Part shown: positions 1-38,319 of the stretch, piece by piece
How positions within the stretch are numbered: position 1 is the stretch's first letter
How the letters are laid out: each line of letters begins with the position of its first letter
From: an uncultured Chthonomonas sp.
GTDB taxonomy: Bacteria > Armatimonadota > Chthonomonadetes > Chthonomonadales > CAJBBX01
Direction: 5' to 3'
Length of the DNA: 38,319 nt
Assembly (NCBI GenBank): GCA_903951425.1
Contig: CAJBBX010000175.1
Span: 1 to 38,319, forward strand
Position numbers and translations under genes: made by a program
The notes under the pieces: generated by a model
Database searches by the model: none
What the model saw: the letters and a program-made list of their open reading frames with translations, nothing else
What the model was told of the DNA's origin: nothing

Positions 1-67
1 CCTGCGGGGCCACCCCGCCCCGCCGTTCATCGCGACGCCAACGGAAGCGCCGTGCAACGCGGATGCG

Positions 68-122: not shown

Positions 123-145
123 CCCGGGGGGGCAGGGCGCCTGTG

Positions 146-188: not shown

Positions 189-223
189 TCTTGTCTACAT
201 CCACCGCCGTCCGGTCCAAGGCG

Positions 224-266
224 TCAAGGTGTTCACTTCCCAGCCTTGGCAAAGTGAACACCTTGA
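224..266. repeat. Perfect 15-bp inverted repeat (hairpin 2)
   Basis: The arm tcaaggtgttcactt (224-238) pairs with 252-266 across a 13-nt loop. The arm is identical to that of the hairpin at 146-188, whereas the loop and the DNA between the two hairpins are unrelated. It ends 7 bp from the stop codon of the minus-strand ATPase remnant. Confidence 0.8.
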
Positions 267-272
267 TCTGGT

Positions 273-605: not shown

Positions 606-619
606 GCAATGCCGGGGTT

Positions 620-673
620 CGGCGGGCGGCTTACGGGGGGCCTTCGGCCATACGGCGGCCTCAGGATGACGGC
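620..673. repeat. Intergenic REP-like repeat, copy 2
   Basis: This is the second copy of the repeat at 68-122, in the same orientation, differing by one single-base indel and about four substitutions. It lies where the recognisable ATPase homology at 273-605 stops, so it may mark a deletion or insertion junction. The following stretch to 811 has no gene that I can support; a weak -10-like cataat lies at 720-725 without a convincing -35. Confidence 0.7.
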
Positions 674-811
674 AAGGGCGCAGTCAGCGCGGTCAGCGCC
701 GCCCGCCTGCCGGTGCAGGCATAATACCTACGGTTGGCCGTGTGCCCCAGGCAACACCGCAGGGGCGCAGATCGGCCTCACGACCACCGCCTGACACCGG
801 GGAGCCCGCCC

Positions 812-1939: not shown

Positions 1940-2547
1940 GCGCGCCGCGGGAGGAGCCGGCGGGGCCGGTGCTGCACGCGGCCCTCCAGATGGCGGCGCC
2001 GTACCTGGCCGTGGCGCTCTTCATGGGCGTCTGGTCGAATGCGTGGCTCTGCCTGCTTGCCTACCACGCGCAGGTACTGGCATGGTCGTGGCGGCGCGTG
2101 GCCCTCTGCCTGCGAGGCTGGGATGCACGCGCGGCGCTGGCGGTCGGCTTGCCATGCGCGCTGGCTGGACCCGCCCTCTGGCTCCTGCTGCCGCATATGT
2201 CGGAGCACCGGCCGGCGGAGTGGTTGGCGGGCTACGGCGTGAGCCGGGCGGGGTTGCTGCTCCTCGCGCCATACTTCGGCCTGGTCCATCCGCTGTTGGA
2301 GGAGGCGCATTGGAGCAGGCTCCGGCGGCGCGCACCAGCGGCGCACCTGCTCTTCGCGGGCTACCACCTGCTGGTGCTGCGGGGCCTTCTGGCGCCGGGT
2401 TGGCTGGCGCTCTGCTTCGGCTGCCTGGCGTCGGCCTCGGCGATCTGGGGATGGGCGGAACGGCGGTCAGGCGGCGGCCTGCGGGCTTGCTGGCTCGCGC
2501 ACGCCGCCGCCGATCTGGGTATCGTCGTCGCGGCGATCCTGCGGTAG
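1918..2547 (+). CDS. CPBP-family intramembrane glutamic endopeptidase
   Basis: This roughly 209-residue, very hydrophobic protein has several membrane segments. It carries the three polar motifs of the CPBP (CAAX-protease/Abi) family: adjacent glutamates (E128-E129, LLEEAHWSR), a histidine in FAGYHLLVL, and a final WLAHAAADL. The spacing EE-x4-R is one residue longer than the usual EE-x3-R, so activity is uncertain. These enzymes cleave peptides inside the membrane, or process prenylated or bacteriocin-type peptides. The GTG start at 1918 lies inside the upstream URO-D gene; a second in-frame GTG at 1969, behind ggaggag, is an alternative. It converges with the SulP gene with only 5 bp between the stops. 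Confidence 0.75.
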   Translation: MGDAGALSAPREEPAGPVLHAALQMAAPYLAVALFMGVWSNAWLCLLAYHAQVLAWSWRRVALCLRGWDARAALAVGLPCALAGPALWLLLPHMSEHRPAEWLAGYGVSRAGLLLLAPYFGLVHPLLEEAHWSRLRRRAPAAHLLFAGYHLLVLRGLLAPGWLALCFGCLASASAIWGWAERRSGGGLRACWLAHAAADLGIVVAAILR

Positions 2548-2552
2548 CGCCC

Positions 2553-8704: not shown

Positions 8705-8740
8705 GCGGCCCCGCGGGTCCGGTGGGCTTCGCGGGGCCGC
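8705..8740 (+). terminator. GC-rich 11-bp hairpin between GH116 and ankyrin genes
   Basis: gcggccccgcg (8705-8715) and cgcggggccgc (8730-8740) are perfect complements around a 14-nt loop, 8 nt after the GH116 stop. It is a strong candidate for a transcript-end or attenuating stem. No T-run follows, and the stem finishes just before the ribosome site of the ankyrin gene, so it might instead limit translation of that gene. Confidence 0.5.
8721..8738. repeat. 18-bp direct repeat, left copy
   Basis: The sequence ggtgggcttcgcggggcc occurs here and, identically, at 10897-10914. The two copies bracket the ankyrin-repeat gene. The left copy makes up most of the loop and the 3' arm of the hairpin at 8705-8740. 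Confidence 0.75.
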
Positions 8741-8751
8741 GAGGACGAGCC

Positions 8752-18458: not shown

Positions 18459-18653
18459 TCAGGTTGTGATCCTGGCACTGGGCTCCCGGCCCCCTGGCCA
18501 TCCCGGTTCCTCGCTGCACTCCTCAACGGGCGTTGCCATGCCCTCGCGGATCGACTCCGCCATACCAGGAATGGACTGCAGGGCGAGCGTCTCCTCCACT
18601 GCCGCCTCGTCCTCATCCGTGAGCACGGCAACGTCGATCGTAATGTCGTTCAC
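18459..18653 (-). CDS. Small antitoxin-like protein overlapping the alpha-galactosidase stop
   Basis: A 64-codon ORF whose GTG start overlaps the TGA of the alpha-galactosidase gene (GTGA). Its sequence has an acidic N-terminal half (VLTDEDEAAVEETLALQ) and then SIPGMAESIREGMATPVEEC. This matches the C-terminal pattern of Phd/RelB-like type II antitoxins as I remember them, where PGM-ESI-EG-ATP-EEC is common. No toxin gene (RelE or ParE type) is on either side: the 111 bp downstream, before the sulfatase, hold no gene. It is possibly an orphan antitoxin captured at the end of a glycosidase transcript. The tail beyond EEPGW looks like read-through. Confidence 0.55.
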   Translation of the reverse strand: MNDITIDVAVLTDEDEAAVEETLALQSIPGMAESIREGMATPVEECSEEPGWPGGREPSARITT

Positions 18654-21274
18654 TTCCTTCCGTACCGGATGGCGAAGGCCTCGGGCGCGGCGGCTGAGGT
18701 GAGGCGCAGTCCCTTGTCGGCCAGTTCGCGGCCCGATACGGTGGTCTCGATGCCCGTGTCGAGGTTGCGGATCACGTAGATCGCCTTCGGGTCGATGCCC
18801 TTGAGCTTGAGGCGGATCTCGGCGTCGGGGCATTCGTTGCGGCGGAAGGCCTGCACGGCGCCTTCGCCCCTTTCGGGCAGGTCGAACTGCCAGGCGATCC
18901 ATGCTTTGGAGTCCTGGCTCGTGGGCGTCAGCGGGTAGTAGTCGCCGGTGTAGCACTGGCTCAGGTCGCGCCAGGCAGCTACGAGCCGGCGCAGGTGGTC
19001 GTAGTCCAGGTCCGGCTCCCGCACGTCGATGCCGGAACCGAGGCTGGGGGCGGCGTTGGACCAGAAGGCATAGGGCTGCACGGGCGTCTTGCCGCCGCCG
19101 TAGTAGGGCGCGCCGTCGGAGGCCACGGTGCCGGTGCCGTGGTACGGCAGCCACATGGAGATGCCGTAGGTCATGCACTGGTGGCCGATGGCCTCGTAGG
19201 CGTAGTCGCTGCGCCAGAGGGGCACGGAGCGGCGCATGGTCTCCAGGTCGTTGCGTCGTCCGCCTGAGGCGCAGGAGTCGATCAGCATGTCCGGATGCCT
19301 CCTGCGCAGCTCATCCCAGTAGGCCAGGTAGCCCATGACGTGCTTGATCTCGGTGATGCCCTGCCGGTCGGGCTCGTCATTGGCGCGCCAGAAACCCAGC
19401 GGGTCGATGTTGAAGTCCTGCCGGTAGAGGCCGATGCCGTTGTCGGTGATGAGCTTGTCGACATGCTCCACGAGCCACTTCCAGGCCTCGGGATTGCCCA
19501 GGTTCAGCAGCTTCTGCGCGTCGTCGGAGCCCCGGGCGCGGACGGTGTTGGGCTTGAATGCAGCAGCGTCCGGCGCGGGACCGGACGGCAGCCAGCCATA
19601 GCTCCAGGCGCCGTTGGGGTTGCGGTCATACGAGAAGCCCCGGGCCGCCTCATGCACGCTGCCGTCAGGGTCGGTGAGCCTGGCCTCGAGCCCGGTGGAA
19701 TCGCACTGGTGGGTCCCGTTGCCCCAACCCACCACGAAGTCCAGCGCCTCGCCGGCGCCAAGGCGCACGGCCTGGCCGTGCTTCGCCTCGCGTCCGGCGC
19801 CATTCAGTCCGATGAAGCCGCTGAAGAGAGGCTTGCCGGCCTGCAGGATGTGGACATCGGTGGTCGTCTTCTCGTCGATGCCGAGGAACGTGGCGTCGAG
19901 GCGGTACTCGCCCGCCGCCGGGCAAGTCCAGCGCACCACGCAGTACTCGCCCTTGGGACCGGGGTGGAAGGAGAGGCGGCCGGGCTTCCAGTGTATGCCA
20001 CCCATGCGGATGTCGCGGTCGGTGCTGTTGAAGGCGACGCCGGGGTCGGGGCCTCCGAGGTCGGAACGCCAGGCCAGTAGGCCCGCCATGGCGTCGGCCT
20101 TGCCCGGCTCGGCGGAGAGGAGCCACTCTGGATGCGTCTCGTAGAGCCAGGTGCCGGGGGCGACGCGCTCGGGCTCGAACCAGACGAGGATGCGGCCGCC
20201 CCGGTCCCGGGCGCGGTCGCTGATCGGCTTGAAGCCGTTGGGGAAGCGCTTGCGGTCGACCTCCCACGTGCCCACCTGCGGCCAGCCCTGCTTCTGCACG
20301 TACCAGCCTGCGTCCATCCACCAGTAGTCGAGCTTCAGGCCCAGCTCCGCGTAGCGGTCGATGTGCATGATCTGGTTCGCCTCGTTGGCGCCGATCATCT
20401 CCTCGTAGGCACGGGAGCTGCTGGCCACAAACTGCGGCGGCGGGAGCTTGCCGCCGGGCTTCGGCATGCTGTGCGCCCCCATCCAGCGGCGCCAGAGGTT
20501 CTGGCCGCGCACCCAGTCCTCGCCCTTGCCGGCCTGCCACCAGAGCAATGCCATCAGCGGCGAGCGGACCTCCTCGCCGGGGTGCAGCACGAAGCGGGTG
20601 AGCTCCTGGCCGGCGCGGAGGCGCACGGCGCCGGGCTCGGCGTGGGTGAAGTCGGCCGACCACTGGCCCGGCCAGCCCACGGCGGCGATGAGGCCCTTGC
20701 CGGCCCACTCCAGGTTGAAGTAGGACATGTCGGAGTTGGTGGGGCGCCCGCCCGCGGCGCCGATGCGCTTGGAGGCGCCCTGCGGCAGCGGCGTCACCAG
20801 CGGGCTGTAGTCAGACTTGTTGGCCGGCGAACCGACGTTGTGGTGCAGGATCGGCTCGCCTGCGCCGCCCTCGTAGGCGGCGTCGATGGCGTTGATATCC
20901 TGCAGCAGGGGCGTGTCGGAGCCGCCCTTGTTGGCGAACCAGAGCGTCCACTCAACCACCGGGTAGTCGGAGTAGGCCACGGCGTCGCAGCGCACTTGAA
21001 GGCCGCCGGCAGGATCGGTCCAGGTGGTGGTGGTCCGGGTTCGGCCGCTCTCCAGCTTCTCAGCGGAGCGCTTGCATGGCCAGGCCGCCAGCAGTTGAGC
21101 CGAGGGCTTGCCGCCGTAGGTGAAGGAGAAGGGCAGCGCCTCGGCGCCGGCCTGGAGGTGCGCCCGGGCCCAGCCCCGTGCCGAGGCCATCTCAGTGCGG
21201 CTGGGCGAACCGGCGGCGGCGGAGACGGCGATGCATGCCGACAGGGCCAGCAGGATCAGTGTCGATGGGCTCAC
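18650..21274 (-). CDS. Secreted GH36 alpha-galactosidase with inserted sandwich domain
   Basis: This 874-residue protein starts at the GTG at 21274, six nt after aaggagg. A Sec signal follows (SPSTLILLALSACIAVSAAA). The other GTG, at 21304, overlaps the upstream stop but has no such site. After the GH36 N-terminal sandwich, the barrel shows YWWMDAGWYVQKQGWPQ, the nucleophile D620 in YRQDFNID, and SCASGGRRNDLETM leading to the acid/base D690 in WRSDY. Between HPEWLL (about residue 382) and LLNLGNPEAW (about 587) there is a roughly 200-residue insert that is absent from ordinary GH36 enzymes. It contains HPGPKGEY, TTTDVH, DSTGL and finally NPNGAWSYGW. The reaction would be release of alpha-1,6-galactose from oligosaccharides or galactomannan. 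It lies 26 bp behind the clan-A glycosidase gene, as an operon. Confidence 0.93.
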   Translation of the reverse strand: MSPSTLILLALSACIAVSAAAGSPSRTEMASARGWARAHLQAGAEALPFSFTYGGKPSAQLLAAWPCKRSAEKLESGRTRTTTTWTDPAGGLQVRCDAVAYSDYPVVEWTLWFANKGGSDTPLLQDINAIDAAYEGGAGEPILHHNVGSPANKSDYSPLVTPLPQGASKRIGAAGGRPTNSDMSYFNLEWAGKGLIAAVGWPGQWSADFTHAEPGAVRLRAGQELTRFVLHPGEEVRSPLMALLWWQAGKGEDWVRGQNLWRRWMGAHSMPKPGGKLPPPQFVASSSRAYEEMIGANEANQIMHIDRYAELGLKLDYWWMDAGWYVQKQGWPQVGTWEVDRKRFPNGFKPISDRARDRGGRILVWFEPERVAPGTWLYETHPEWLLSAEPGKADAMAGLLAWRSDLGGPDPGVAFNSTDRDIRMGGIHWKPGRLSFHPGPKGEYCVVRWTCPAAGEYRLDATFLGIDEKTTTDVHILQAGKPLFSGFIGLNGAGREAKHGQAVRLGAGEALDFVVGWGNGTHQCDSTGLEARLTDPDGSVHEAARGFSYDRNPNGAWSYGWLPSGPAPDAAAFKPNTVRARGSDDAQKLLNLGNPEAWKWLVEHVDKLITDNGIGLYRQDFNIDPLGFWRANDEPDRQGITEIKHVMGYLAYWDELRRRHPDMLIDSCASGGRRNDLETMRRSVPLWRSDYAYEAIGHQCMTYGISMWLPYHGTGTVASDGAPYYGGGKTPVQPYAFWSNAAPSLGSGIDVREPDLDYDHLRRLVAAWRDLSQCYTGDYYPLTPTSQDSKAWIAWQFDLPERGEGAVQAFRRNECPDAEIRLKLKGIDPKAIYVIRNLDTGIETTVSGRELADKGLRLTSAAAPEAFAIRYGRK

Positions 21275-21300
21275 GGCTCTCCTCCTTGCGCTGGGCGCGT

Positions 21301-23361
21301 TCACTTGGCGTTCACCTTGAGGTTGCGGCCTACCAGCCAGACCGGCTCCTCGGAGGCGCGGGCGGGAAGGCTCGCAAGACGGTTGCCCATCATATCGAGG
21401 GCGGCGGCCTTGCCGGTCACCTTCAGGCCGGCGGGTCCACCGGGGCTCCAGACCAGCAGCAGGTCGTCCTGCCCGCGCCGATACCGCGCGGTCCAGACGG
21501 CCCCGCCCGAGGCAAGGCCCACCGGCTTGGCTCCCGCCGTCTGCCGCGCGAAGACGCTGAAGGCAGCCACGGCGGGCTTAGGGGCGCAGTTGAGGTCCTG
21601 ATGGCGGATCACGCCGAAGTTATGTTCGTTGTAGGTGGGCTCGGCGCCGTCGTCCTTGAGGTCGTACCAGTAGAGACGTTCCACGGACCCGCAGGTCTGC
21701 AGGATGGCCGCCGTTCGCACGCAGAGCGCGGCCTGTGCGCCCTCGTCCACGCCTGCGCGGCCCAGGTGCGTGGGGTAGCCGATCTCGGTGGCCCACATGT
21801 GGCGGGGCGCGCCACCCTCCACTGCCGCGTCGAGGATGCGCCGCATGTCGCCTGCCAGGTCGGAGGTCTCGGGCGGCGACGGGTAGCGGTACGGGTGGAT
21901 GGAAAAGGCATTGAGGGCGGGCGTGGCGCCGGCGCGGAACATGCGGGCCACGACCTTGCCGCAGTCGACGCCGTACTCGCCGCCCACGCCGCAGATCGCC
22001 GCGTCGGGCCGCACCGCCCGGGCCGCCTCGGCGGCGGGCTTCATCAGCTTGCCGTAGGCCTCAGGACCATGGTCGCCGGGCTGGCCGCCCATGCCGCAGC
22101 CGCCGATCCACTCGTTCCAGATCTCGAAGTCCCGCACGGTGTCGCGGGTGGCGCCGGCCAGGGCGCCGCAGTAGGCCGCGAAGCCGGCGATGGCCTCGGG
22201 CGAGTTGGGAAAGCTGCCACCGTCGTAGTTCTTGTTCGCGTAGTCGAAGATGATGAGCGGCTCCAGGCCCACCTTCCGTGCGTGCTCGAGGTACTTCGCG
22301 GCGTAGTCGGGCAGGGCGAGGTTGCCCTTGGTCGGCTCCATGGCGCCCCAGCTGATCTCATCGCGGAAGCGGGTGAAGCCGTAGCGCTTCATCAGGTCCA
22401 TGGTCTCCAGCGGGTAGGCGTTCTGGCCGTAGTGGGTGCAGAGGCCCAGGAAGGGGTTGCCCGCCGTCGCCGATGTGGGGAGGACGGCGTAGCGGAACTC
22501 GCGGCCGCAGCGGACGCCGTCGGCGCCGGCGACCTCAAAGCGCACGGCGAACCAGCCGCACCGCGCCGCGGGCGCCTCTACCACGGGACGCTCAGAGCGC
22601 CTGCGTGAGGAGTCCAGGCTCTTGCCCGCATGGTCCAGCAGGCTCCAGGTCATGGGTTCGCCGTTGGCGTAGGCCCGCACTCGAATCTTCTCGCCCGGCG
22701 CGTAGACGTTGCCGAAGCGGCTGCCGGCCACCTCCACGGTGATCGCGTTGGGCCGCTCCACCAGGCTGCAGGTTGCCAGGTCTGCCAGGCGGACGGTTGC
22801 CTTGCCCTTGAAGCCGGAGTTGGGCCGATCGAAGACAAGGCCCGCAACGGTGAGCTCGCCGTCCAAGCGGCCGTTCCCGTCGCCGGCCCACGTCTGGCCG
22901 CCTTTCAGCAGGTAGTAGACGCGGTGCCAGCCGCGGGAAGTGTCCTCCTGGCCGTAGAACTGGTGCACCTCGCCCGACGCATCGGCGATGCGCAGGGCCG
23001 GCACGATGGACGGCAGGCTACGCTCGGAGAGGTAGCAGAGGCCCTCGACGCCCTCCGGCAGGCGAAGCGGCTTGTTCAGGTCAACGTACTCGAGGCCGGC
23101 CTTGCCCGAGAAGTCGGCGTCCACGCGGAGCGCGGTGCGGCCCGTCTGCGTCTCCACACGTGCCGTGGCCCGGCAGTTCTGCTCGCCCGCCAGGGGCTTC
23201 CACTCCAGCGGCGAGGCCGTCAACGTATCGATCACGGCGCCAACGGCGTGGCGCCTCTCGGCGCTGTTGGCCGGCTCCGGGCAGGCCATCGGCTTCCACG
23301 TCTGGGCCGAAGCGGCGGCGCAGAGGCCGGCGAAAAGGATGACGGCGGCGAACCTGGGCAT
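21301..23361 (-). CDS. Secreted clan-A (GH39/GH5-like) glycoside hydrolase
   Basis: This 686-residue protein has a Sec signal (MPRFAAVILFAGLCAAASAQ). Residues about 20-300 are beta-rich and probably carbohydrate-binding. A TIM barrel then runs from GLCTHYGQNAYPLETMDLMK to about 600. The two catalytic glutamates are visible as E417 in DFEIWNEW (acid/base after beta4) and E526 in MWATEIGYPT (nucleophile after beta7), the clan-A arrangement. A short C-terminal sandwich ends in NLKVNAK. Retaining beta-glycosidase activity (xylosidase, glucanase or similar) is likely, but the substrate cannot be read from the sequence. ATG 23361 has aaggaga upstream. It lies 46 bp behind the PEBP-fusion gene, and the alpha-galactosidase follows. 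Confidence 0.85.
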   Translation of the reverse strand: MPRFAAVILFAGLCAAASAQTWKPMACPEPANSAERRHAVGAVIDTLTASPLEWKPLAGEQNCRATARVETQTGRTALRVDADFSGKAGLEYVDLNKPLRLPEGVEGLCYLSERSLPSIVPALRIADASGEVHQFYGQEDTSRGWHRVYYLLKGGQTWAGDGNGRLDGELTVAGLVFDRPNSGFKGKATVRLADLATCSLVERPNAITVEVAGSRFGNVYAPGEKIRVRAYANGEPMTWSLLDHAGKSLDSSRRRSERPVVEAPAARCGWFAVRFEVAGADGVRCGREFRYAVLPTSATAGNPFLGLCTHYGQNAYPLETMDLMKRYGFTRFRDEISWGAMEPTKGNLALPDYAAKYLEHARKVGLEPLIIFDYANKNYDGGSFPNSPEAIAGFAAYCGALAGATRDTVRDFEIWNEWIGGCGMGGQPGDHGPEAYGKLMKPAAEAARAVRPDAAICGVGGEYGVDCGKVVARMFRAGATPALNAFSIHPYRYPSPPETSDLAGDMRRILDAAVEGGAPRHMWATEIGYPTHLGRAGVDEGAQAALCVRTAAILQTCGSVERLYWYDLKDDGAEPTYNEHNFGVIRHQDLNCAPKPAVAAFSVFARQTAGAKPVGLASGGAVWTARYRRGQDDLLLVWSPGGPAGLKVTGKAAALDMMGNRLASLPARASEEPVWLVGRNLKVNAK

Positions 23362-23407: not shown

Positions 23408-25567
23408 TTACGGTCGCGCGGGTTCGGCCTCCTCGGTCTCGTTGCCGCGCGTGTAGTTCGTGCTCAAGCCGGCCGAGGCCAGGACTTTGCCGCGCATGGC
23501 ATCTAGCAGCACCTGCCGGGTAACGTCGGCCGGCGCCGCCGAGATGCGGAGCGGCTCCGAGAGCGCGTAGAGCGTCAGGATGTAGGTCTTGGCGCCCGGT
23601 CCCTTGGAGTGGGGCGGCGCGTAGGCGGTCTTGTGGTCGACACTGTTGCTGCCCGCGATGCCGACCCCGGTGCTGCCCTTGGCGAGGCTCCGAACGGTGG
23701 CCGGGATGTTGTAGAGGGTCCAGTACCACTTGGTGTTGCCCTCGGGATCGACGTGGTGCATCGTCAGGGCGTAGCACTTCGTCGCGGTCGGCGCGCCGGA
23801 CCACTCCAGCGGAGGGCTGGCGCTGTCGCCGTCGCCGGTGAACTCGACCGGGAGCACACCGTCCGCGCCGATGGCGGGGCTCCGAAGGACGAAGCCGGCC
23901 TGTTGCTTCGGCGCGCTCGGGGCCGGCCGGGCGGAGCCGCCCGAAGGCGGCCCCGCGCTCTTGGCCGGAGCGAAGAAGAAGTGATCCGTGGTCGGGATCG
24001 GCACCGCGGCCTGCACCGGATCGGAGTAGATGTAGGCCGGCGCGCTGGTGTAGCCGTCCAGATTGCGGAGCCGCACCAGTTCGGCCCGCTGCTCGCCGGT
24101 TAGGGTCTTGCCTGCCGTGGCGAATGCCGCCGCGTAGAGGTATGACATGGCGCCGTCCAGTTCGCCGTAGCGGCGTCCGAGCGCCACCACCTTCTCCTTG
24201 CTCGCCTGCCCGCCGGTGAGGAACTTCCGGAGCTCCTGGGCGATGGCCTGGCGAACGGTGACCACCTCGTTCATGTCCTTGCGCTGCAGGTCGGGGATGG
24301 CGACGATCGGCCGGCGCTGCTCCTGGGAGAGCGTGGCAAGGAAGCCCTGGCCGCTGTCACCCGTCACCGATGTGCTGATGTCGTAGTCGCGCTTGCCCAT
24401 CGCCGGCATATCCTTCATGTAGAAGCCGCCGAAGTAGGTGCCGTGGCGCTCTGGGCAGAAGTAGACGTCCGCTTTGACCGATCCGGCGTACCAGCTGAAG
24501 AACTCGCTGGCGCAACTCATGTAGGCCACGTTCACCGGCTTCTCGGTGCCGCGCGGCAGCTTGTAGCCGGAGACGTCCAGGTCGGGCCATGTGTTGAAGT
24601 CGCCGAACTTCATCTTGCCAAGGTACGCCTTCTGATCGGCCGTCAGGGAGCCGGCGATCCGGCCGAAGACCCGTGACCGCTCATAGCTGATCTCAGCGTC
24701 GAATGCAAAGATGTCACCGACCGCGCGCACGACCGCGGCCTTGTTGAGCCCGGAGCTACCCGATGGGATCTCCCCGGCCAGGTTGCGGCAGAAGGCCTTG
24801 ATGAGCGGCAGGCGCATCAGCGCCAGCTTGTTCATCTGCACGGCCTCCTGCCGGGCCATGGCCTCAAGCATCTGCTTCTGCGCGGGCGTCATGGTATGCA
24901 GGACGTTGGCCACCACCCGGTCGAGGAACTTGGGGTTGTGCCCGGCCTGCGCGGCATCGATGTCGCGCATATACTGGAACCCGAAGTAGTCGCAGACCTT
25001 GCCGGGCGGCAGGAACGTGCAGGCGCCGTAGTCGCCCGTGATGAAGGCCAGCCCGCTGAAGGCGATCGTATGGAGTTGGGCGTTGTCCGAGATGGCCTGC
25101 TCCAGCGAGTATGCCTGCGGGCCGCCCTGGCCATGGCCCCGCGGCCCGCCCTGACCCTCGTCGCCCGGTCCATCCGGTCCACCAGGCCCGCCGGGCCCGC
25201 CTTGGCCCTGCTGCTGCCGGCCTCCGGGCCCGTTGGCCCGCCCCCCCGCGCCCTGGGCCGGGAGGTTGGCCTTGTTCACGAGCTTCAGGTCCTTGGCGGA
25301 GTACTGGTAGAGCACGTTGCCGACCAGGGCGTAGACGTAGTCGTTGTTGGCAACGACTACCGCCTGCTGCTGCGCCGGTGGCCGCCTCTCGTCGGTCCGG
25401 CCCCGTTGCGCGTTGGCGCCTCCGCGAGCGGCGCCCGATGCTCCGGCCTCGGGGCGGTCCTGCGCGTCGCCGTCCTGGGCGCAGGCCCCTATCGCCCCCG
25501 CCGTCAGGGCGCAGGCCGCCAGCGCACTCCAGCCGGCGCAACGTCTGATGGTCCATCTCGATCTCAT
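23408..25567 (-). CDS. Secreted LTxxQ-repeat protein fused to a PEBP (YbhB/YbcL) domain
   Basis: This 719-residue protein starts at the ATG behind ggaggacagg. The leader ends in AIGAC, a plausible lipobox with C29. Residues 68-103 hold one quinoprotein/propeller-like strand set (NNDYVYALVGNVLYQYSAK). A Gly/Pro/Gln-rich linker follows (about 105-150). The main domain (152-535) has LTxxQ-like motifs at 226 (MTPAQ), 308 (LTADQ), 413 (LSQEQ) and 489 (LTGEQ), with the block ADVYFCPERHGTYFGGFYMK at 366-385. Residues 557-708 are a complete phosphatidylethanolamine-binding-protein domain (LPVEFTGDGDSASPPLEWSG, WYWTLYNIPA). I do not know the function of the main domain; LTxxQ motifs recall Spy/CpxP chaperones. 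The downstream paralogue copy in the frameshifted gene pair (27347-25714) lacks the PEBP part. Confidence 0.8.
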   Translation of the reverse strand: MRSRWTIRRCAGWSALAACALTAGAIGACAQDGDAQDRPEAGASGAARGGANAQRGRTDERRPPAQQQAVVVANNDYVYALVGNVLYQYSAKDLKLVNKANLPAQGAGGRANGPGGRQQQGQGGPGGPGGPDGPGDEGQGGPRGHGQGGPQAYSLEQAISDNAQLHTIAFSGLAFITGDYGACTFLPPGKVCDYFGFQYMRDIDAAQAGHNPKFLDRVVANVLHTMTPAQKQMLEAMARQEAVQMNKLALMRLPLIKAFCRNLAGEIPSGSSGLNKAAVVRAVGDIFAFDAEISYERSRVFGRIAGSLTADQKAYLGKMKFGDFNTWPDLDVSGYKLPRGTEKPVNVAYMSCASEFFSWYAGSVKADVYFCPERHGTYFGGFYMKDMPAMGKRDYDISTSVTGDSGQGFLATLSQEQRRPIVAIPDLQRKDMNEVVTVRQAIAQELRKFLTGGQASKEKVVALGRRYGELDGAMSYLYAAAFATAGKTLTGEQRAELVRLRNLDGYTSAPAYIYSDPVQAAVPIPTTDHFFFAPAKSAGPPSGGSARPAPSAPKQQAGFVLRSPAIGADGVLPVEFTGDGDSASPPLEWSGAPTATKCYALTMHHVDPEGNTKWYWTLYNIPATVRSLAKGSTGVGIAGSNSVDHKTAYAPPHSKGPGAKTYILTLYALSEPLRISAAPADVTRQVLLDAMRGKVLASAGLSTNYTRGNETEEAEPARP

Positions 25568-25640
25568 GGTCCTGTCCTCCTCTGGAGGCGCCTGGCGGTT
25601 GGTCCATCCCCCCACCAGGCGTCTACCAGTCTCACTTTGG

Positions 25641-25667
25641 CAGGCGCAGATGACGCCTGCGTGACGG
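25641..25667 (-). promoter_or_regulatory. 27-bp conserved upstream element, copy A
   Basis: This element differs at two positions from 27457-27483. Its core tgacgcctgcgtga is a near-palindrome (tgacgc and gcgtga half-sites). It begins 74 bp upstream of the PEBP-fusion start codon. The element is non-coding in both places, so shared regulation of the two paralogues is the simplest reading; a leftover of their duplication is the alternative. Confidence 0.6.
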
Positions 25668-25713
25668 CAACGGGCGTCTCTGCGTGATTTGCGAAATCGC
25701 TGCGCCGCCGATG

Positions 25714-26298
25714 TCACTTCACCTGGAACGGGGCGCTATCGACCGTCTGCAGTCCGGTCGCGGTAGCGCGCAGCGTGTAGGCGCCGGGCTTGTCGATGCT
25801 GAGCCCGGGGAACGTCGCGATACCGGCCACTGCGGCGACGGAAGTCACTCCGCGTAGCTTGGCCCAGGTCCGGTTGATGCCCAGGTTCAGGCTGACCACG
25901 GTGGTGGCCGTGGTGACTACGTTGCCGGCTGCGTCGACGATCGCGATCCGCACGGGCGGGCTGATGGCCGCTCCCACGCGCGTTCCCACGGGCTGGACCG
26001 ACACCGACAGCTTGGCCGGGACGGACGGCGCCGCGAACAGGTAGTCCGTGTTGGCTATGTACGGCGCCAGGAGCGACACGTCAGTGATGACGGCCGAGTA
26101 GAGGAACGGCGTTGTGCAGACAGTGAAGTCAAACGGCGTTCCGTCGGCGTATGTGCCGCGCAGGATTTGGGCCCGTAGCGTGGCGAGCTTGGCCTTCTGG
26201 GCGTCCGTCAGCGAGCGCCGGAGTTGGGCCATGGTGGTGGCGTACCGTACCTCGTTCTCGCCATCCAGTTCGCCGTAGATCGCGGACCTGGCAAGCAC
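25714..26298 (-). CDS. C-terminal part of frameshifted LTxxQ-repeat protein (Ig-like tail)
   Basis: This frame continues the protein of 26208-27347 after a frameshift in a GC dinucleotide run at 26302-26312. Just upstream of its nominal GTG start it reads RAYVLARSAIYGELDGE, matching RRYGELDGAMSYLYA of the PEBP-fused paralogue. It supplies the fourth LTxxQ-like motif (LTDAQ). The last roughly 105 residues form a bacterial Ig-like (BIG/invasin-type) domain: SVPAKLSVSVQPVGTRVGAA, then RIAIVDAAGNVVTTATTVV and SIDKPGAYTLRATATG. It has no credible ribosome site of its own, so by itself it is not a real start. It should be read as one gene with its upstream part, 27347 to 25714. Confidence 0.7.
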   Translation of the reverse strand: MLARSAIYGELDGENEVRYATTMAQLRRSLTDAQKAKLATLRAQILRGTYADGTPFDFTVCTTPFLYSAVITDVSLLAPYIANTDYLFAAPSVPAKLSVSVQPVGTRVGAAISPPVRIAIVDAAGNVVTTATTVVSLNLGINRTWAKLRGVTSVAAVAGIATFPGLSIDKPGAYTLRATATGLQTVDSAPFQVK

Positions 26299-30879: not shown

Positions 30880-32496
30880 ATGACCTCGCGGTTCACTCGT
30901 CGAAGCTTGCTGGCGGCCGCCGGCGCGGCATCGGTCGGAGCATCGGCCACGCGCGTGCGGGGACAAGGCCAAGCGGCTCCCGGCCCGCTCTTTACGAACC
31001 CGCTCGATGTGAAACTGGCTGATCCCTGCATGATCCGGTCCGGCGGAACCTACTACCTGTATGCCACGGCATCCATGCCCGAGGATGCCGACCAGGGCAT
31101 GCCCGTCTGGTCGTCGCAGGATCTGGTCCGCTGGCAGTGCCACGGTTGGGCCTTCCTCAAGACATCCAACGGATGGGGCACGCACTGGTTCTGGGGACCG
31201 GACGTGCACCGTTTGGGCAATGCCTACCTGATGCACTACGGCGCGTTCCGCAAGGTGGACGGCAAGGCCGTCGGCCGCATATGCGTCGCCCGGAGCGCTT
31301 CTCCGCTCGGCCCATTCACCGACGTCAAGGCGCCCATGTTCGAGTGGACCGGACGGGGAGACGCCATTGACGCCTTTGTGTTTGAGGAAGTCGGCGGCGC
31401 GGCGATCCTCTACTTCACCGATGCGTGGAACGGGCGCAACACGATCTGGGGAGCCAAGCTGACACCCGACCGCCTGGGCCTCGCGGAGGCGCCGAAACTC
31501 CTGCTTGAGCCCAATCAACCCTGGGAGGTGGAGCCCGTCAACGAAGGCGCCCACGTATGGAAGCACGGCTCGACCTACTGCATGATGTTCTCCATCAACG
31601 ACTTCCGCAATCCCGCCTACGCCATGGGCTTCGCGACGGCCCCTGCCCCGATGGGACCGTGGACCAAACGGACCGAGGGGCCGGTGATCCGCCAGGCGCC
31701 GGGACTGCCCGGGCCGGGATGCGCCGGTCTCATCGCGTCGCCGGACGGCAAAGAGACGTGGGCCTACATGCATGTGCATCTGCATCCCGACGGCAATGCG
31801 CGGCAACTGGCCTTGAGCAAAGCCCTCCTCACGACGACGCCGGGCGGGCAGGCGGACCTGCGCATCGAGCCGCTCACGGTCGCGCCCCAGCCGGCGCCGT
31901 CGGGCGCGCCTGCGCGTCGCGAGCCTCGGAGCGACACCTTCGGCGGCGATGCCCTTGATCGGTCCCTCTGGACGGTCGTCGACGAGAGCGCGGACCACTG
32001 GCGCAAGGAGCCCGGCAGGATCGTGGTCACGGCGCTCGACGGAGATATGTGGAAGCAGCGCTGCGACTACCGCAACCTGTTCTTGCAGGGGCCGGCGGCG
32101 GGCGACTTTGAGGTCGATATCCAGGTGGAAGCCGCGCTGCAGGGGAACTACGAGCAGTGCTTCATCATCGCATGGCAAGACGCCGGCAACTACGTGCGTC
32201 TGGGGATGGTGCATGCAGACGGCCCGAAGTTCAGCACGGCGATAGAGTTGAACGGTGTGTACGAGGAACTGATCACGCCGAACAGCCTCGGCTCGAAGGT
32301 GGGGCTGAGGCTGGTTCGCCGCGGCGATCTCTGGAGCTTCGTCGTCGGCGCAGGAGGCCGATGGACGCCGGTCGGCGCTTCGCGCGAGGCGCGCCTTGCC
32401 CTGCCGAGGATCGGTTTCGGAGCCGTTGCGCCCGGAACCAAGCGGCCCTACGCGGCAACCTTCCGGAACTTCACAGTGGCGCGAAAGGCGACGTGA
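30880..32496 (+). CDS. Tat-exported GH43-type beta-propeller glycosidase
   Basis: This 538-residue protein opens MTSRFTRRSLLAAAGAASVG, a Tat signal. A five-bladed GH43 propeller spans about residues 38-345: the base D48 in LADPCMIRSGGTYYLYATAS, a second acid D164 in AIDAFVFEE, and the general acid E222 in PVNEGAHVWKHGSTYC. Residues about 360-535 are a concanavalin-like C-terminal sandwich (SDTFGGDALDRSLWTVVDES, FRNFTVARKA). Arabinan, xylan or galactan side chains are the usual substrates for this clan; the exact one is not readable. aagg lies ahead of the ATG. The pectate-lyase-fold gene follows after a 128-bp gap that contains a pyrimidine repeat. Confidence 0.9.
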   Translation: MTSRFTRRSLLAAAGAASVGASATRVRGQGQAAPGPLFTNPLDVKLADPCMIRSGGTYYLYATASMPEDADQGMPVWSSQDLVRWQCHGWAFLKTSNGWGTHWFWGPDVHRLGNAYLMHYGAFRKVDGKAVGRICVARSASPLGPFTDVKAPMFEWTGRGDAIDAFVFEEVGGAAILYFTDAWNGRNTIWGAKLTPDRLGLAEAPKLLLEPNQPWEVEPVNEGAHVWKHGSTYCMMFSINDFRNPAYAMGFATAPAPMGPWTKRTEGPVIRQAPGLPGPGCAGLIASPDGKETWAYMHVHLHPDGNARQLALSKALLTTTPGGQADLRIEPLTVAPQPAPSGAPARREPRSDTFGGDALDRSLWTVVDESADHWRKEPGRIVVTALDGDMWKQRCDYRNLFLQGPAAGDFEVDIQVEAALQGNYEQCFIIAWQDAGNYVRLGMVHADGPKFSTAIELNGVYEELITPNSLGSKVGLRLVRRGDLWSFVVGAGGRWTPVGASREARLALPRIGFGAVAPGTKRPYAATFRNFTVARKAT

Positions 32497-32532
32497 CGCT
32501 GCGGTACCTGCGGCAAGCCCGCCGCGGCGCCG

Positions 32533-32578
32533 TCCCTTTCGACTTTCGACTTGCCCCTTTCCACTTCCCACTTCCCCG
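32533..32578. repeat. Polypyrimidine short-period repeat
   Basis: About 46 nt are almost only C and T on the plus strand, with recurring ctttcgact and ccacttccc units. On the minus strand it reads as a GGGAAGTGG/GAAAGTC pattern. It lies in the gap between the GH43 and pectate-lyase-fold genes. It is a simple-sequence intergenic element, not a gene; a -10-like tatgct follows at 32584-32589 without a good -35. Confidence 0.55.
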
Positions 32579-32624
32579 TCCGGTATGCTTTGGCCGGCCC
32601 CAATGCGGCCGCGGGAGGTCCTCC

Positions 32625-33890
32625 ATGCAATCCCTTCTTATGTTCTGCCTGGCTCTGACGGCGGCCTGCGCCGTCATGGGGCAGGCCCCCTTGCCGAAGA
32701 GCGTCAATGCGCGCGACTTCGGGACCGTGGGCGACGGCGTCGCCGATGACACGGCCGCCATCCAGAAGGCGCTGGATGCGGTGCAGGGCGCGCCCGGCGT
32801 GGTGCACCTGCCGGCGGGCAAGTTCCGCATCAGCGCCACGCTGCTGGTGCGCGACGGGGCCACGCTGCTGGGCGAGGGCGCCCGGTGGGAGAACACGGCC
32901 ACCCAGATCGTCATCATGCAGCCGGGCTTCGCGGCGGTGCGGCTCCACCATGCCTCTGCGCTGAAGGGCGTCTGCCTCTCCTACCCAAACAACCGCAAGA
33001 ACGTGCAGCCCGTGAAGTACCCGCCCGCCATCCTGCTGGGAGGCATCAATCCCGCCGTGGAGGATGTCACCTTCGACTGCGCGTGGGACGGCGTCTCCAC
33101 GGTGCCGGGCATCCAGACCGGCCAGTCGCTCTTCCGCAACCTGACCGGGCACATCCACAACGTGGGCATGCACCTCTCGGGCATCCGCGACGTGGTCCGC
33201 GTGGAGAACGTCCACTGGTTCGTGGGCGGCGACCCCATCGACGCCACGGCCTACTACACGCGCAACCGCGTGGGCTTCGAGCTGGGCGACGTGGACGGGC
33301 TCATCATGAGCAAGTGCTTCGTCATCGGGGCCAAGACCTTCTTCCACCAACTACCCACGAAGGACACCACCGACGGCACGAAGCAGCCCGCGCACTCGCT
33401 GGGCCTGCACATCGACCAGTGCTGGATCGAGGATGTCGACAACGGCTTCATCTTCGAGGGCACGTCCGGCTTCGTGCTGGAGAGCACGAACATCCTCGTG
33501 CGCAAGGGCGGCGTGGGCGTGCGTGTGGACGCCGATCACCTCTTCTACAACGCGGTGATCACCGGCGTGCAGGTGCGGCCCTTCGACCAGCCGATCCGCG
33601 GCTTCGAATACCGCGTGAAGAACCCCCACGAGCGGAACCGTCTCAGCATCGCCGACTGCCAGGTGACCATGGGCTCGCCGGCGGTCCACCTGATGAAGGG
33701 CGCCATCCGGGCAAACATCCACGACAGCCACTTCAAGAGCGTGCCCGGCCAGCCGGCGGTGCAGATCGACGAGGGCGTCACCCTATTCACGCTGACCAAC
33801 AACGTCCTCACGTCGGCCATGCCGATCCGTGACCAGAGCGGACCCAAAGCGCAGAAGACCATCGCCGGCAACCTGGTCGAAAAGCCGTAA
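32625..33890 (+). CDS. Secreted pectate-lyase-fold (GH28-related) protein
   Basis: This 421-residue protein has a Sec signal (MQSLLMFCLALTAACAVMG; a lipoprotein-type Cys is possible at AAC). It then shows the pectate-lyase-3 opening VNARDFGTVGDGVADDTAAI and a right-handed beta-helix of about 12 turns. It is half the size of the double-helix protein at 10819-12795 and only distantly similar. No GH28 catalytic aspartates stand out, so substrate and even enzymatic activity are open. gggagg is well placed ahead of the ATG. The GH42-like gene starts 16 bp after its stop, so the two are probably co-transcribed. Confidence 0.87.
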   Translation: MQSLLMFCLALTAACAVMGQAPLPKSVNARDFGTVGDGVADDTAAIQKALDAVQGAPGVVHLPAGKFRISATLLVRDGATLLGEGARWENTATQIVIMQPGFAAVRLHHASALKGVCLSYPNNRKNVQPVKYPPAILLGGINPAVEDVTFDCAWDGVSTVPGIQTGQSLFRNLTGHIHNVGMHLSGIRDVVRVENVHWFVGGDPIDATAYYTRNRVGFELGDVDGLIMSKCFVIGAKTFFHQLPTKDTTDGTKQPAHSLGLHIDQCWIEDVDNGFIFEGTSGFVLESTNILVRKGGVGVRVDADHLFYNAVITGVQVRPFDQPIRGFEYRVKNPHERNRLSIADCQVTMGSPAVHLMKGAIRANIHDSHFKSVPGQPAVQIDEGVTLFTLTNNVLTSAMPIRDQSGPKAQKTIAGNLVEKP

Positions 33891-33906
33891 GGGGGGCGAA
33901 CGAACC

Positions 33907-36900
33907 ATGAACCCACTCGTGGCCGCACTGGCGATGGCCCTGCTGGGAGGCGCGCCGGCGGGACCGGCAGACCCGTTCGCCTACCCGGCCGACGCCGAGT
34001 GGAGGGCGCAGTGGGTCTGGGGCTCGGAGGCGCCGCATGGCCCCAACGGCTGGTTCCGCCGCACGATCCAGGTGGGGCCGGGCCTCACGGCGGCCTGGGC
34101 GCAGATGAGCGGAGATGACGGCTACACGCTCTTCGTGAACGGCCGCGAGGTGCGCCGGGGCGGCTTCTGGTGGAAGACCACCGATCGGGCCGACCTGCTA
34201 CGGTTCCTGCGCCCCGGCGCCAACGTGCTGGCCGCCCGCGCGGCCAATGCGGCGCACCCCGGCGGATTCCTGCTGCAGGCCGACCTCCTCTACGGCGGCC
34301 GCCTGCAGACCGAGGCCACCGGAGCGGAGTGGCGCTTCACCAACCGGGAGCCGGGGGAGGGCTGGGCGGAGGCCGGGTTCGACGACAGCGGGTGGGAGCG
34401 CTGCAAGCCCATGGGTTCGCCGCCGGCGGCCTCGCCCTGGGGCGCGCTGCCGTTGGCCTACGCCGGGCCGCGCTTCCCCGTGCGGCTGGAAGCGCCCGTG
34501 GCCGCGCAGCGCGTGAGGGCGGGCTCGACGCTCACCTTCGCGCTGGAGCTGTCCGTGCCGCCGCAACCCGCCGGCCGCAGCACGCTGGACGTGGCCCTGC
34601 GCGACGACGCGCGGCTGGCCGCCCGTGCGTCGATCCCGGTGGCGCTGCCGGCCCGCGGCGGCCGCGTCTTGCTGAAGGTCCGCGTGCCGGTGGGCAGGTA
34701 CGCGTCCGATGGCCGTCTCCGCATCGAGGCCGGGTTGCGGGGCTCGCGCTACACCAACCCGAGCATCAGAGGCTTCCGCGTGGGCGAGGTGACCATCCAG
34801 CGATCCGTGCCGCCGGGGACGGTGACCACCGCCGAGGTGAAGCCCTACCATGGCGCGCCGACGCTTCATCTCAACGGCAAGCCCGCCTTCGCGCTCTGGT
34901 TCTACCAGGGCCAGCCGAACCCCCGCGACCTCCGCGCCTTCCACCGCGCCGGCGTGGATGTCGTCACCACCGATATGCCCATGGGCTGGACCGGGCCGGG
35001 CAAGAGCGACTTCGCGACCTTCGATGACGCCGCGGCACGCATCCTCGACGCCAACCCCAACGCCTACCTCGTCCCGCGGCTCTGGCTCTCGGCGCCCGGC
35101 TGGTGGCTCGACGCGCATCCCGACCAGATCGTGAAGATGGCCGACGGCACGGGCTGGGTCGAGAACGGGCTTGGCGGCACGCGGCACGAGTCCTTCGCAT
35201 CCGAGCTCTGGCGACGCGAGGCCGGCGAGGCCCTGGCGCGCCTCATCCGCCACGTGCTGGCCTCGCCCTACTCGGACCGCGTCATCGGCTACCATCTGGG
35301 CAACGGCATCTACACCGAGTGGCACGCCTGGAGCGCGCCCAACATCCCCGATATCTCCGAGCCCATGCGCCTGCGGATCGCCGCGTTCGCCCGCCGCCGC
35401 TACGCTGGCGACGAGGCCGCCCTCAGCGCCGCCTGGGGCATGCCCGACGTGACGTTCGACACCGTCCGCTGCCCCACGCCGGCCGAACGCCGGAGCGGCG
35501 ACGTGGGCGTCTTCCGCGACCCGGCTCGATCGCGCTTCGTGGCCGACGCCTACGAGGCGTTCCACCTGGCGTCCGTCGAGGCGCTCCTCTCGTTCTGCAG
35601 GGTCGTGAAGCGCGAGACGCGACGCCGGGCCTTCACGCTGGCCTTCTACGGCTACTTGCCCGACCTCGAATGGCCGCAGGAGGGCGACCACCGCGCTCTG
35701 GACGTGCTGCTGCGCTCGCCAGACATCGACTGCCTCTCCAGCCCCCACTCCTACGAGCGGCGGGCGCTGGGCCAGGACGGCCTGTTCCGGCACCATCCCG
35801 CCTCGGTCAGGCTCCACGGCAAGCTCTTCATCGATGAGGGCGACGACCGCACGCACCTGGCCAACGACCCGCAGTTCACCCACGTGAAGAGCGCCGCCGA
35901 GGCCGCCGCCGTGCTGCGCCGTGCCGCCGCCAATACGCTGACGCACCACGTCGGTATGTGGTACATGGACCAACAGGGCAACTGGTTCAACGACCCGCGC
36001 CTCATGGCCGAGATCGCGCGGCTCAGGCGCCTGGGCGACGAGTCGCTGGCCTCGCCCCGGCGGCGCACCGCGCAGGTCGCCGTGGTCATCGCGCCGCACA
36101 GCGACTTCCACATGGCCGGACGCACCTCCGGGCTGGACCACGTCACGTTCGCGCTACTCCAGAAGCAGGTCGGCGAGCTCTGCCGCGCCGGGGCGCCCTT
36201 CGAGGTCTACCTGGTAGACGACCTGGCCGACGCGCGCATGCCCGACTACAAGCTCTACGTCATGCTGGAGTGCTTCGCCCTGACCGACGGCCAGCGAGCG
36301 GCCGTGCGGCGCAAGCTCACGCGCTCCGGGGCCACGGCGCTCTGGTTCTACGCTCCAGGCTACGTCACCGATCGCGGCCTCTCGGCCGAGGCAGCGTCCG
36401 AACTGGCGGGCATGGCCCTGCGAGCCGAAACGGCGCCGAGGGAGCTCAAGCTCACCACATGCGACCCGACGCTGGGGCCGTTGGGCATGGAGTTCGGGAC
36501 CGGGGGCAGCCAGTCGCCGTCGTTCACGTGCGCCGACGGCGGCGCCCGGCCGCTGGCCCGGTACGCCGGATCGGACGCCGTCGGCATGGCATCCAAGGGG
36601 AGGGCGATCTTCTGCGCCGTGCCCGGCCTGCCCGCGGCCATGCTCCGGGCCGTCTACCGCATGGCCGGCGTGCACATCTACGCCGACGCCGACGACCCGC
36701 TCACCGCGGACGCCCGTTTCGTCGCCCTGCACACAGCCACTGCCGGCGCCAAGACGATCCGCCTGCCCGAGCGCCGCACGGTGCTGGACGCCCTCACCGG
36801 CGCCACGGTTGCCCGCAACGCAGCCGGCTTCAGCTTCGCGGCGCGCCGGCACGAGACCTGCATTTTCAGGCTGGTGGACCAGGGCGCCGCTCCGGTCGGG

Positions 36901-36915
36901 CATGGGCGGCAGTAG
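33907..36915 (+). CDS. Secreted GH42-like glycosidase with N-terminal jelly-roll
   Basis: This 1002-residue protein has a short hydrophobic leader (MNPLVAALAMALLGGAPAG). Residues about 30-205 are a rhamnosidase/CBM67-like jelly-roll (EWRAQWVWGSE, FFRR-type strand, NVLAARAAN). A linker sandwich follows to about 305, then a TIM barrel with GH42 traits. E471 in GIYTEWHAW is the likely acid/base, and E644 in KLFIDEGDDRTH matches the nucleophile position of the large GH42-like families. A Rossmann-like trimerisation domain follows (VAVVIAPHSDFHM, DYKLYVMLECFALTDGQRAA), then a C-terminal sandwich (RTVLDALTGATV). Beta-galactosidase or a related beta-glycosidase role is inferred. aaggggggc precedes the ATG. 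Confidence 0.85.
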   Translation: MNPLVAALAMALLGGAPAGPADPFAYPADAEWRAQWVWGSEAPHGPNGWFRRTIQVGPGLTAAWAQMSGDDGYTLFVNGREVRRGGFWWKTTDRADLLRFLRPGANVLAARAANAAHPGGFLLQADLLYGGRLQTEATGAEWRFTNREPGEGWAEAGFDDSGWERCKPMGSPPAASPWGALPLAYAGPRFPVRLEAPVAAQRVRAGSTLTFALELSVPPQPAGRSTLDVALRDDARLAARASIPVALPARGGRVLLKVRVPVGRYASDGRLRIEAGLRGSRYTNPSIRGFRVGEVTIQRSVPPGTVTTAEVKPYHGAPTLHLNGKPAFALWFYQGQPNPRDLRAFHRAGVDVVTTDMPMGWTGPGKSDFATFDDAAARILDANPNAYLVPRLWLSAPGWWLDAHPDQIVKMADGTGWVENGLGGTRHESFASELWRREAGEALARLIRHVLASPYSDRVIGYHLGNGIYTEWHAWSAPNIPDISEPMRLRIAAFARRRYAGDEAALSAAWGMPDVTFDTVRCPTPAERRSGDVGVFRDPARSRFVADAYEAFHLASVEALLSFCRVVKRETRRRAFTLAFYGYLPDLEWPQEGDHRALDVLLRSPDIDCLSSPHSYERRALGQDGLFRHHPASVRLHGKLFIDEGDDRTHLANDPQFTHVKSAAEAAAVLRRAAANTLTHHVGMWYMDQQGNWFNDPRLMAEIARLRRLGDESLASPRRRTAQVAVVIAPHSDFHMAGRTSGLDHVTFALLQKQVGELCRAGAPFEVYLVDDLADARMPDYKLYVMLECFALTDGQRAAVRRKLTRSGATALWFYAPGYVTDRGLSAEAASELAGMALRAETAPRELKLTTCDPTLGPLGMEFGTGGSQSPSFTCADGGARPLARYAGSDAVGMASKGRAIFCAVPGLPAAMLRAVYRMAGVHIYADADDPLTADARFVALHTATAGAKTIRLPERRTVLDALTGATVARNAAGFSFAARRHETCIFRLVDQGAAPVGHGRQ

Positions 36916-36971
36916 CCAAACGCGCAACTCGTCGCATGCCGCCTCTCGCTACCCGCCGCGGCCCGCTGCGC

Positions 36972-36994
36972 TATACTGGTTGAACCGGTTATAT
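36972..36994 (+). promoter_or_regulatory. Candidate promoter -10 with overlapping LacI-type operator
   Basis: tatact (36972-36977) looks like a -10 hexamer and is followed at once by ggttgaaccggttatat. Its aaccggtt centre (36983-36990) is a perfect palindrome of the CcpA/LacI-family type. It lies 121-143 bp upstream of the DUF5060-type glycosidase. A repressor binding there would overlap the transcription start. No LacI gene is in the window, and the -35 is not convincing. Confidence 0.45.
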
Positions 36995-37114
36995 GGATTG
37001 CCGTAGCGCTTCCGCCATCCGAGGCCGTCGGTATCCTCGGCATGGCCGTGCGCGGGTCGGCAACCCCGGCGTGACCGGTACGCTTACCGATCTCAGGCGT
37101 CTAGGAGCGATGCG

Positions 37115-38319
37115 ATGCCTCAGTCACGGGTGGTCTACCGCGTCTGCCGACGGATCCATGCCGCGCTCTGGTCGGCCTGCCTGGTGCTCCTGCCCGGCGC
37201 CCCGGCCTCGGCCGCCCCGCAGATCGGCGCCGTCCGGAACCTGACCCAGAGGGTCAGCCGGTACGGGCGCCTCGAGTTGGCGGCGCCCATCACCGGGGCC
37301 TGGACCAACCCCTTCGACCCGGACCAGGCCGACGTATGGGCCGAGTTCACCTCTCCCAGCGGGCGGAACCTCCGCGTGCCGGCGTTCTGGCACCAGGGCT
37401 ATGCGGAGAGCCCGCCGGCCACCCCGGTGCGCCGGCAGATGGACACGGTAACGCTGTTCGCCTACGACCGCGACTGGGCAGCGGGCACGCGGTGCGAGTT
37501 CTACATCGACGACGTGAGCCTCATCGACCGGCAGGGCCGCGAGCAGCCGTACGACGACATGGAGATGGGATCCGACCCACGCCAGGAGGCGCTCCAGGCG
37601 CCGGCGCTGACCTGGTCGACCACGGTGCGCCGAAGCGGTAAGCGCTCCCTGCTCTTCGCGCCCGCTTTCGAGGGACAGACCCGCTGGCCAAGCGTCCTCT
37701 TCCGGCTCGGCGGCAAGGACTGGACCGGCTACCGCGGGATGGCGCTCTGGGTCTACCCCCGGTGCGAGACCCCGATCGGTCCGCTACGGATCTACTACAC
37801 CGACAAGGTATGGGGCAAATCGCGCGACGGCGCCTGGGAGCCGCGCGCCGGTGCACTGAAGCCGAACCAGTGGAACCGGCTGGAGTGGCGCTGGGTCGAC
37901 CCATGGCCATCGGTCAACCTGGCCGCGGTCGGGGCCCCGGAGTGGCGCGCGCGGTTCACTCCCACCGAGGTCGGCCGGTACCAGGGGCGCCTCACCGCCC
38001 GCGACAGGGAGGGCGCGACCGCCTCCGCGCCGTTCGCCTTCGATGTCGCGCCGTCGTCCGGCCACGGATTCGTCCGCGTCAGCAAACAGGACCCGCACTA
38101 CTTCGCCTTCGACGACGGCGCCCCGTTCGTCCCCATCGGCCACGACGTTCCGCTCGGCCTCCCGGACGTGCGGGCGTGCTACCCGCGCATGAAGGCGCAT
38201 GGCGAGAATGCCACCTACTTCATCCTCTGCCCCTATGACCTCTCGTTCGAGTGGAACCAGTTGGGCGTCTACGACCTGGAGCGGGCAGCTCGGATCGACC
38301 GGGTGATCGAGGCCGCGGA
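37115..38319 (+). CDS. DUF5060-type secreted glycosidase, 3' truncated by the window end
   Basis: The ATG at 37115 has aggag 7 nt upstream; 401 codons are visible before the window ends. A long leader (MPQSRVVYRVCRRIHAALWS, then CLVLLPGAPASAA) precedes a DUF5060 domain. Its first half (NPFDPDQADVWAEF, SPSGRNLRVPAFWHQGY) ends near residue 96. Its second half (APEWRARFTPTEVGRYQGRL) starts near 268 and leads to the GFVRVSKQDPHYFAFDDG hinge and the beginning of a DUF4038-like TIM barrel. Between them sits a roughly 165-residue carbohydrate-binding-like insert whose blocks appear in rotated order (EFYIDDVSLID before GKRSLLFAP and PNQWNRLEWRW). Catalytic residues lie beyond the window. The putative operator at 36972-36994 is upstream. 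Confidence 0.85.
   Translation, partial: MPQSRVVYRVCRRIHAALWSACLVLLPGAPASAAPQIGAVRNLTQRVSRYGRLELAAPITGAWTNPFDPDQADVWAEFTSPSGRNLRVPAFWHQGYAESPPATPVRRQMDTVTLFAYDRDWAAGTRCEFYIDDVSLIDRQGREQPYDDMEMGSDPRQEALQAPALTWSTTVRRSGKRSLLFAPAFEGQTRWPSVLFRLGGKDWTGYRGMALWVYPRCETPIGPLRIYYTDKVWGKSRDGAWEPRAGALKPNQWNRLEWRWVDPWPSVNLAAVGAPEWRARFTPTEVGRYQGRLTARDREGATASAPFAFDVAPSSGHGFVRVSKQDPHYFAFDDGAPFVPIGHDVPLGLPDVRACYPRMKAHGENATYFILCPYDLSFEWNQLGVYDLERAARIDRVIEAA

Follow-up and report, generated by a model that had tools for sequence, protein, structure and literature searches.

The window analysed here, a stretch of 38,319 nucleotides that is the whole of contig C175 of its genome, closes with an open reading frame that runs off the contig end and very probably specifies a secreted GH5-like glycosidase carrying a circularly permuted CBM11-like beta-sandwich in a loop of its N-terminal DUF5060 domain. 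Matches to a profile of the rejoined insert, rotation scans, relatives recognised as CBM_11 and a match to CtCBM11 together lead to this reading. A short link connects the old N- and C-termini of the inserted domain; the new termini, as read from the sequence, lie between the third-last and second-last strands, the loop at which the chain enters from DUF5060 and returns to it. This arrangement has been conserved across a group of Armatimonadota enzymes, mostly by inheritance with the host gene.

The reading frame (37115-38317, plus strand, like all features of this gene given below; 401 aa) covers the 5' portion of a gene whose 3' end lies beyond the contig, and it encodes, in order, a probable signal peptide (MPQSRVVYRVCRRIHAALWSACLVLLPGAPASA, 37115-37213, predicted from the sequence), a split DUF5060 with the insert, and the start of a GH5-like barrel. 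Pfam PF16586 (DUF5060) matched the frame in two stretches, with 33.5 bits against a cut-off of 27.2. The first half, up to FWHQGYAE (37220-37408; Pfam match at residues 47-94, E 5.2e-8), is delimited by our alignment A1 and, by way of the complete orthologue L007, corresponds to residues 22-72 of the mannanase ManDH5, while the second half (GAPEWRARFTPTEVGRY..., 37919-38062), which at A1 positions 236-302 matches insert-less DUF5060 proteins, corresponds to ManDH5 residues 82-149. The GH5-like catalytic domain begins with GFVRVSKQDPHYFAFDDG... (38063-38317) and is cut by the contig end. The orthologue L007 (923 aa, 89% identical to the window protein) matched ManDH5, a GH5 beta-mannanase with DUF5060 from Dictyoglomus (PDB 9gmj, 9gpc), with an E-value of 6.6e-54 for 9gmj. 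Both catalytic glutamates of ManDH5 are aligned in L007; the window gene ends before them. In the same comparison the Glu of WEPVAELDG falls opposite ManDH5 Glu303, the residue mutated in the PDB entries of that enzyme, and GEFG pairs with TEFG. The likeness to ManDH5 thus covers the host architecture and the catalytic barrel, whereas its DUF5060 lacks the insert, residues 72 and 83 flanking the site.

The insert that interrupts DUF5060 is 163 residues long (37409-37897). Its initial 47 residues (VRRQMDTVTLFAYDRDW...EFYIDDVSLID, 37409-37549, ending in ...VRRQMDTVTLFAYDRDWAAGTRCEFYIDDVSLIDRQGREQP) are the C-terminal two strands of an ordinary CBM11-like domain and occupy positions 115-162 of the rejoined profile, even though they lie upstream; the remaining 116 residues (YDDMEMGSD...PNQWNRLEWRW, 37550-37897) are the N-terminal part of the ordinary domain, at rejoined-profile positions 1-120. 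The first-pass annotation had the insert open with the last strand of such a sandwich, and that strand is indeed present, though as the second of a transposed pair. Between the two pieces the short link LIDRQGREQPYDDME (37520-37564) leads from the old C-terminus to the old N-terminus, as located by alignments A1 and A3 and by the joint from the rotation scan. Ten other proteins keep the insert in the same order, at identities down to 25%, and with the window they form the set of 11 inserts used throughout. A profile of DUF5060 plus insert (A1) found matches in 122 of the 291 genomes of the phylum; among the matches listed, all but ten insert-bearing genes comprise just the two halves of DUF5060 (at ~4-69 and ~235-302 of the profile), next to each other, with a gap of 0 to about 10 residues between profile positions 69 and 236 in the ~23 insert-less loci examined. 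Because the halves adjoin in most DUF5060 proteins of the phylum, and because ManDH5 has no insert either, we regard this as a clean domain insertion, as had been proposed from the letters alone. The viral contigs searched contained no relatives.

The proposal that the inserted domain is circularly permuted was likewise borne out, by profile searches, by rotation scans and by profile-profile alignment. The 11 inserts were cut at the link, between DRQGREQP and YDDME, and rejoined in the other order to give profile A3, the native order giving profile A4. A search of the phylum with A3 brought up about 50 other domains, each matching in one piece across the artificial joint at position ~116 (best E 3.4e-16), while the DUF5060 inserts match it in two swapped pieces. 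The native-order profile aligns end to end with ten DUF5060 inserts only, and ordinary domains score much lower with it (29.9 bits versus 61.1 with the rejoined profile for G258:C146, and 36.5 versus 60.4 for G273:C161). A scan of every rotation against a profile built from 20 domains in ordinary order gave the best score at the same joint for all 11 inserts, each gaining 20-35 bits on rejoining; the window insert rose from 34.3 to 62.8 bits, and 200 shuffles of it reached at most 4 bits. Since those 20 training domains had themselves been found with the rejoined profile, the scan was repeated with domains found by Pfam CBM_11 only, a profile blind to the question, which picked the same joint (best rotation 38-46), the score rising less, from 26.5 to 32.9 bits. 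Profile-profile alignment covered 149 columns rejoined versus 110 in native order. The inserts therefore align better to unpermuted relatives once rejoined, and do so at a consistent joint, as is expected of a circular permutation.

The link between the insert and CBM11 goes through intermediates, because the window insert alone, native or rejoined, had no Pfam match, and because neither it nor profiles A3 and A4 alone had a match in the PDB. A comparison of the rejoined insert with family profiles, as had been recommended, thus gave nothing directly and led to CBM_11 by way of the ordinary-order relatives, two of which match that family in Pfam (L020, E 4.7e-9; L021, E 0.0031). A mixed profile of rejoined inserts and ordinary domains (A6), which includes CBM_11 members, matched CtCBM11 over residues 10-168, through the joint, with an E-value of 6e-7, and gave weaker matches to xylanase CBMs. 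Once rejoined, the insert shows the DDxE, DW, W, DD succession of CBM11 (Pfam CBM_11; CtCBM11 of Clostridium thermocellum endoglucanase H, PDB 1v0a/2lro), DDxE and DD being kept relative to CtCBM11 itself. It differs from CBM11 in being circularly permuted, so that strand order and termini are not those of the family, in lying inside another domain instead of at an end, and in its cut site and ligand residues, which are taken up below. As neither the ordinary order nor the ligand residues are found, we call the domain CBM11-like and not a member of CBM11.

Structure prediction, which the first-pass annotation had also recommended, was informative for the host and not for the guest. AlphaFold (AF2) was run with four sequences. 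For the insert in its DUF5060 context the mean pLDDT was 72 and the pTM 0.45, and in a fold search against the PDB the DUF5060 part alone was matched convincingly, to ManDH5 (Z 15.8, rmsd 2.2, 126 aligned residues). The insert alone was modelled with a mean pLDDT of 65 and a pTM of 0.61; a search of the PDB with this weak model gave a best Z of 5.9, with no match clearly ahead of the rest and no CBM among those listed, so the predicted fold of the insert was of low confidence and was not confirmed. It is the sequence evidence, not the AF2 models, that carries the conclusion of a permutation.

How else might such an arrangement come about? A rearrangement of the joints during assembly or binning, a concern raised when the insert was first described, would fit a gene that sits at a contig end; yet contig L007, from an independent metagenome-assembled genome, is colinear with the window over 6.2 kb (32089-38319) at 88.9% identity, L009 and further independent loci carry the same joints, and these are retained at the 25% identity of the most distant loci. 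With ten orthologues sharing the order of the insert, one of them on an independent colinear contig, an assembly artefact is a negligible prospect and was rejected. It would also be conceivable that two independent small elements, a strand pair and a separate domain, lie side by side by chance, and the low-confidence in-context AF2 model does not fix the pairing of the pieces. Against this, both pieces occur together, in the same swapped order, in 11 of 11 proteins, every one of which gains from rejoining, and about 50 other proteins have the pieces contiguous, in ordinary order, in what appears to be one domain of ~160 residues, as does CtCBM11. We consider such a coincidence very improbable, and two separate small domains were discarded on these sequence grounds, namely the rejoined profile and the rotation scans. 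A permuted domain could, further, have entered DUF5060 more than once, in two groups, instead of in a single event. The tree of the catalytic barrels places eight of the insert-bearing enzymes in one group and the pair L018 and L019 apart from it, and the eleven inserts do not come together as one group in a tree of their own; the branches of L018 and L019 are long, however, and a single clade was not rejected for either the barrels (p-AU 0.33) or the inserts (p-AU 0.125). The insertion site and the joint are exactly the same in all 11, which favours one origin and leaves repeated entry unlikely.

The alternative that deserves most weight concerns function: the permuted domain may be a structural spacer whose sugar binding has been lost, its permutation being neutral. 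We take the ligand residues of CtCBM11 to be Tyr22, Tyr53, Tyr129, Tyr152, Arg126 and Asp128. In our alignment, on which these correspondences depend, none of the tyrosines is kept: Tyr22 is absent, the columns of Tyr53 and Tyr152 hold Trp, and Arg126, Asp128 and Tyr129 have no counterpart, loop 126-129 being absent from the insert. The chain has been opened precisely at this ligand loop, where the new termini lie, and the conserved positions of the insert are mostly of a structural type (DDxE, DW, WN, DD). Because the ligand residues of the cut loop are without counterpart, sugar binding by the insert stays putative. On the other side, the Trp aligned with Tyr152 is invariant and the domain has been retained and conserved across distant enzymes, which suggests selection beyond the filling of space. 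We regard a mere spacer as a real possibility, if somewhat the less probable outcome. For the permuted CBM11-like domain itself, attachment by two linkers instead of one would keep one face of the module in a set position next to the catalytic domain, and the insert might there serve in substrate binding and positioning, or in packing, for a hydrolase of beta-mannan or a related substrate.

One of the insert-bearing loci, L008, lies on a contig labelled Victivallales (Lentisphaerota), has 69% G+C and is nested among Armatimonadota sequences; either misbinning of an Armatimonadota contig or a transfer may account for this. Its reading frame stops early (658 aa), a change of frame being likely.

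The DUF5060 insert is not the only rotated insert in the phylum. The window holds another in a GH36 barrel (19517-20083, minus strand, in the reading frame 18650-21304, minus strand), which is also circularly permuted and, as first noted, belongs to a different family: it is a domain with the motif FSxxxNPNGxWSYG (NPNGAWSYG in the window copy), whereas the DUF5060 insert is CBM11-like. Once rejoined, the GH36 insert matches in one piece the ordinary-order domains L128 (3-178), L130 (1-171), L131 and L132, which are either short and secreted or terminal; the match to the window copy and to its relatives inside GH36 and GH2 barrels (L126, L127) comes in two swapped pieces. Two heparinase II/III enzymes (L083:232-3849 and L084:3-3599, both minus strand) have, within their N-terminal catalytic domain, an inserted CBM11-type domain that is permuted, with a break point different from that of the DUF5060 insert; rejoining took the score of L083 from 58 to 128 bits and that of L084 from 60 to 119 bits. 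In the DUF2961 proteins L087 and L088 (residues 65-227 of the reading frame) only the first strand (DDFESGQEW) of a CBM-like domain has moved behind the last, and rejoining adds 10 bits. With permuted inserts also in GH36 and in heparinase II/III hosts, and a shift by one strand in DUF2961 hosts, the suggestion that rotated inserts recur holds within the phylum. Near its N-terminus L083 has, in addition, a CBM11-like domain in ordinary order. In the GH123-like enzyme L082 (reading frame 1-4650, residues ~780-940) there is a possible further rotated CBM-like insert, for which the rotation scan gave no clear result.

As to how such inserts arise, a stretch one domain long, cut out of phase from tandem copies, could settle in a host loop; alternatively, the settling stretch could be what is left of a duplicated insert after loss of both outer halves, and tandem duplication, as first proposed, is a plausible route. 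Tandem copies do exist (L085 and L081, and several on one reading frame in G226 and G236), and the ordinary-order copies that were read stand mostly directly after signal peptides or near C-termini, both of which fit the idea of an out-of-phase insertion of one domain. Among the matches listed, no DUF5060 showed the state expected of an intermediate, with the insert in ordinary order or in duplicate. A bolder view, which we put forward tentatively and think rather doubtful, is that, in this phylum, circular permutation goes systematically with the insertion of accessory beta-sandwiches into enzyme domains, inserted copies being rotated and terminal ones not. The inserted DNA would then be an out-of-phase stretch of this kind, and at least three unrelated permuted inserts (the CBM11-like domain in DUF5060, the NPNGxWSYG domain in GH36/GH2 and the CBM11-type domain in heparinase II/III), together with the shift by one strand in DUF2961, would all stem from a single process.

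Both ingredients have precedents. CBM36 and CBM60 modules reportedly stand alone and are not inserts in a host domain. They are families other than that of the CBM11-like insert, and share with it a natural circular permutation, here linking two groups of sugar-binding modules, as the work is summarised where it is cited (Montanier et al. 2010, J Biol Chem 285:31742, cited in PMC4725902 and PMC4444583). An accessory module likewise sits inside another domain where CBMs interrupt a catalytic SGNH domain, as in NmApe1; the passage on these in the review PMC9487903 does not speak of a permuted module. A search of the open literature, with most subscription journals outside its scope, found no paper on permuted inserts in glycosidases and, on DUF5060, a Lactobacillus genome study only. 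Circular permutation and domain insertion are thus each known; the present cases combine the two repeatedly, in different glycosidase and lyase families of one little-studied phylum. The permuted order explains why such inserts escape family annotation, as the window insert does in Pfam. Natural sets in both orders, the rotated inserts and the ordinary terminal domains, now allow tests of how permuted inserts arise and of whether holding a binding module by two linkers alters the action of the enzyme.

Other genes of the window include the neighbour of the host gene (33829-36915, plus strand), with a weak match to the N-terminal domain of alpha-L-rhamnosidases and a weak GH42 barrel match, in a region colinear in L007; a frame of 769 aa (23408-25717, minus strand) with a C-terminal phosphatidylethanolamine-binding protein domain; and an ankyrin-repeat protein of 680 aa (8722-10764, plus strand).
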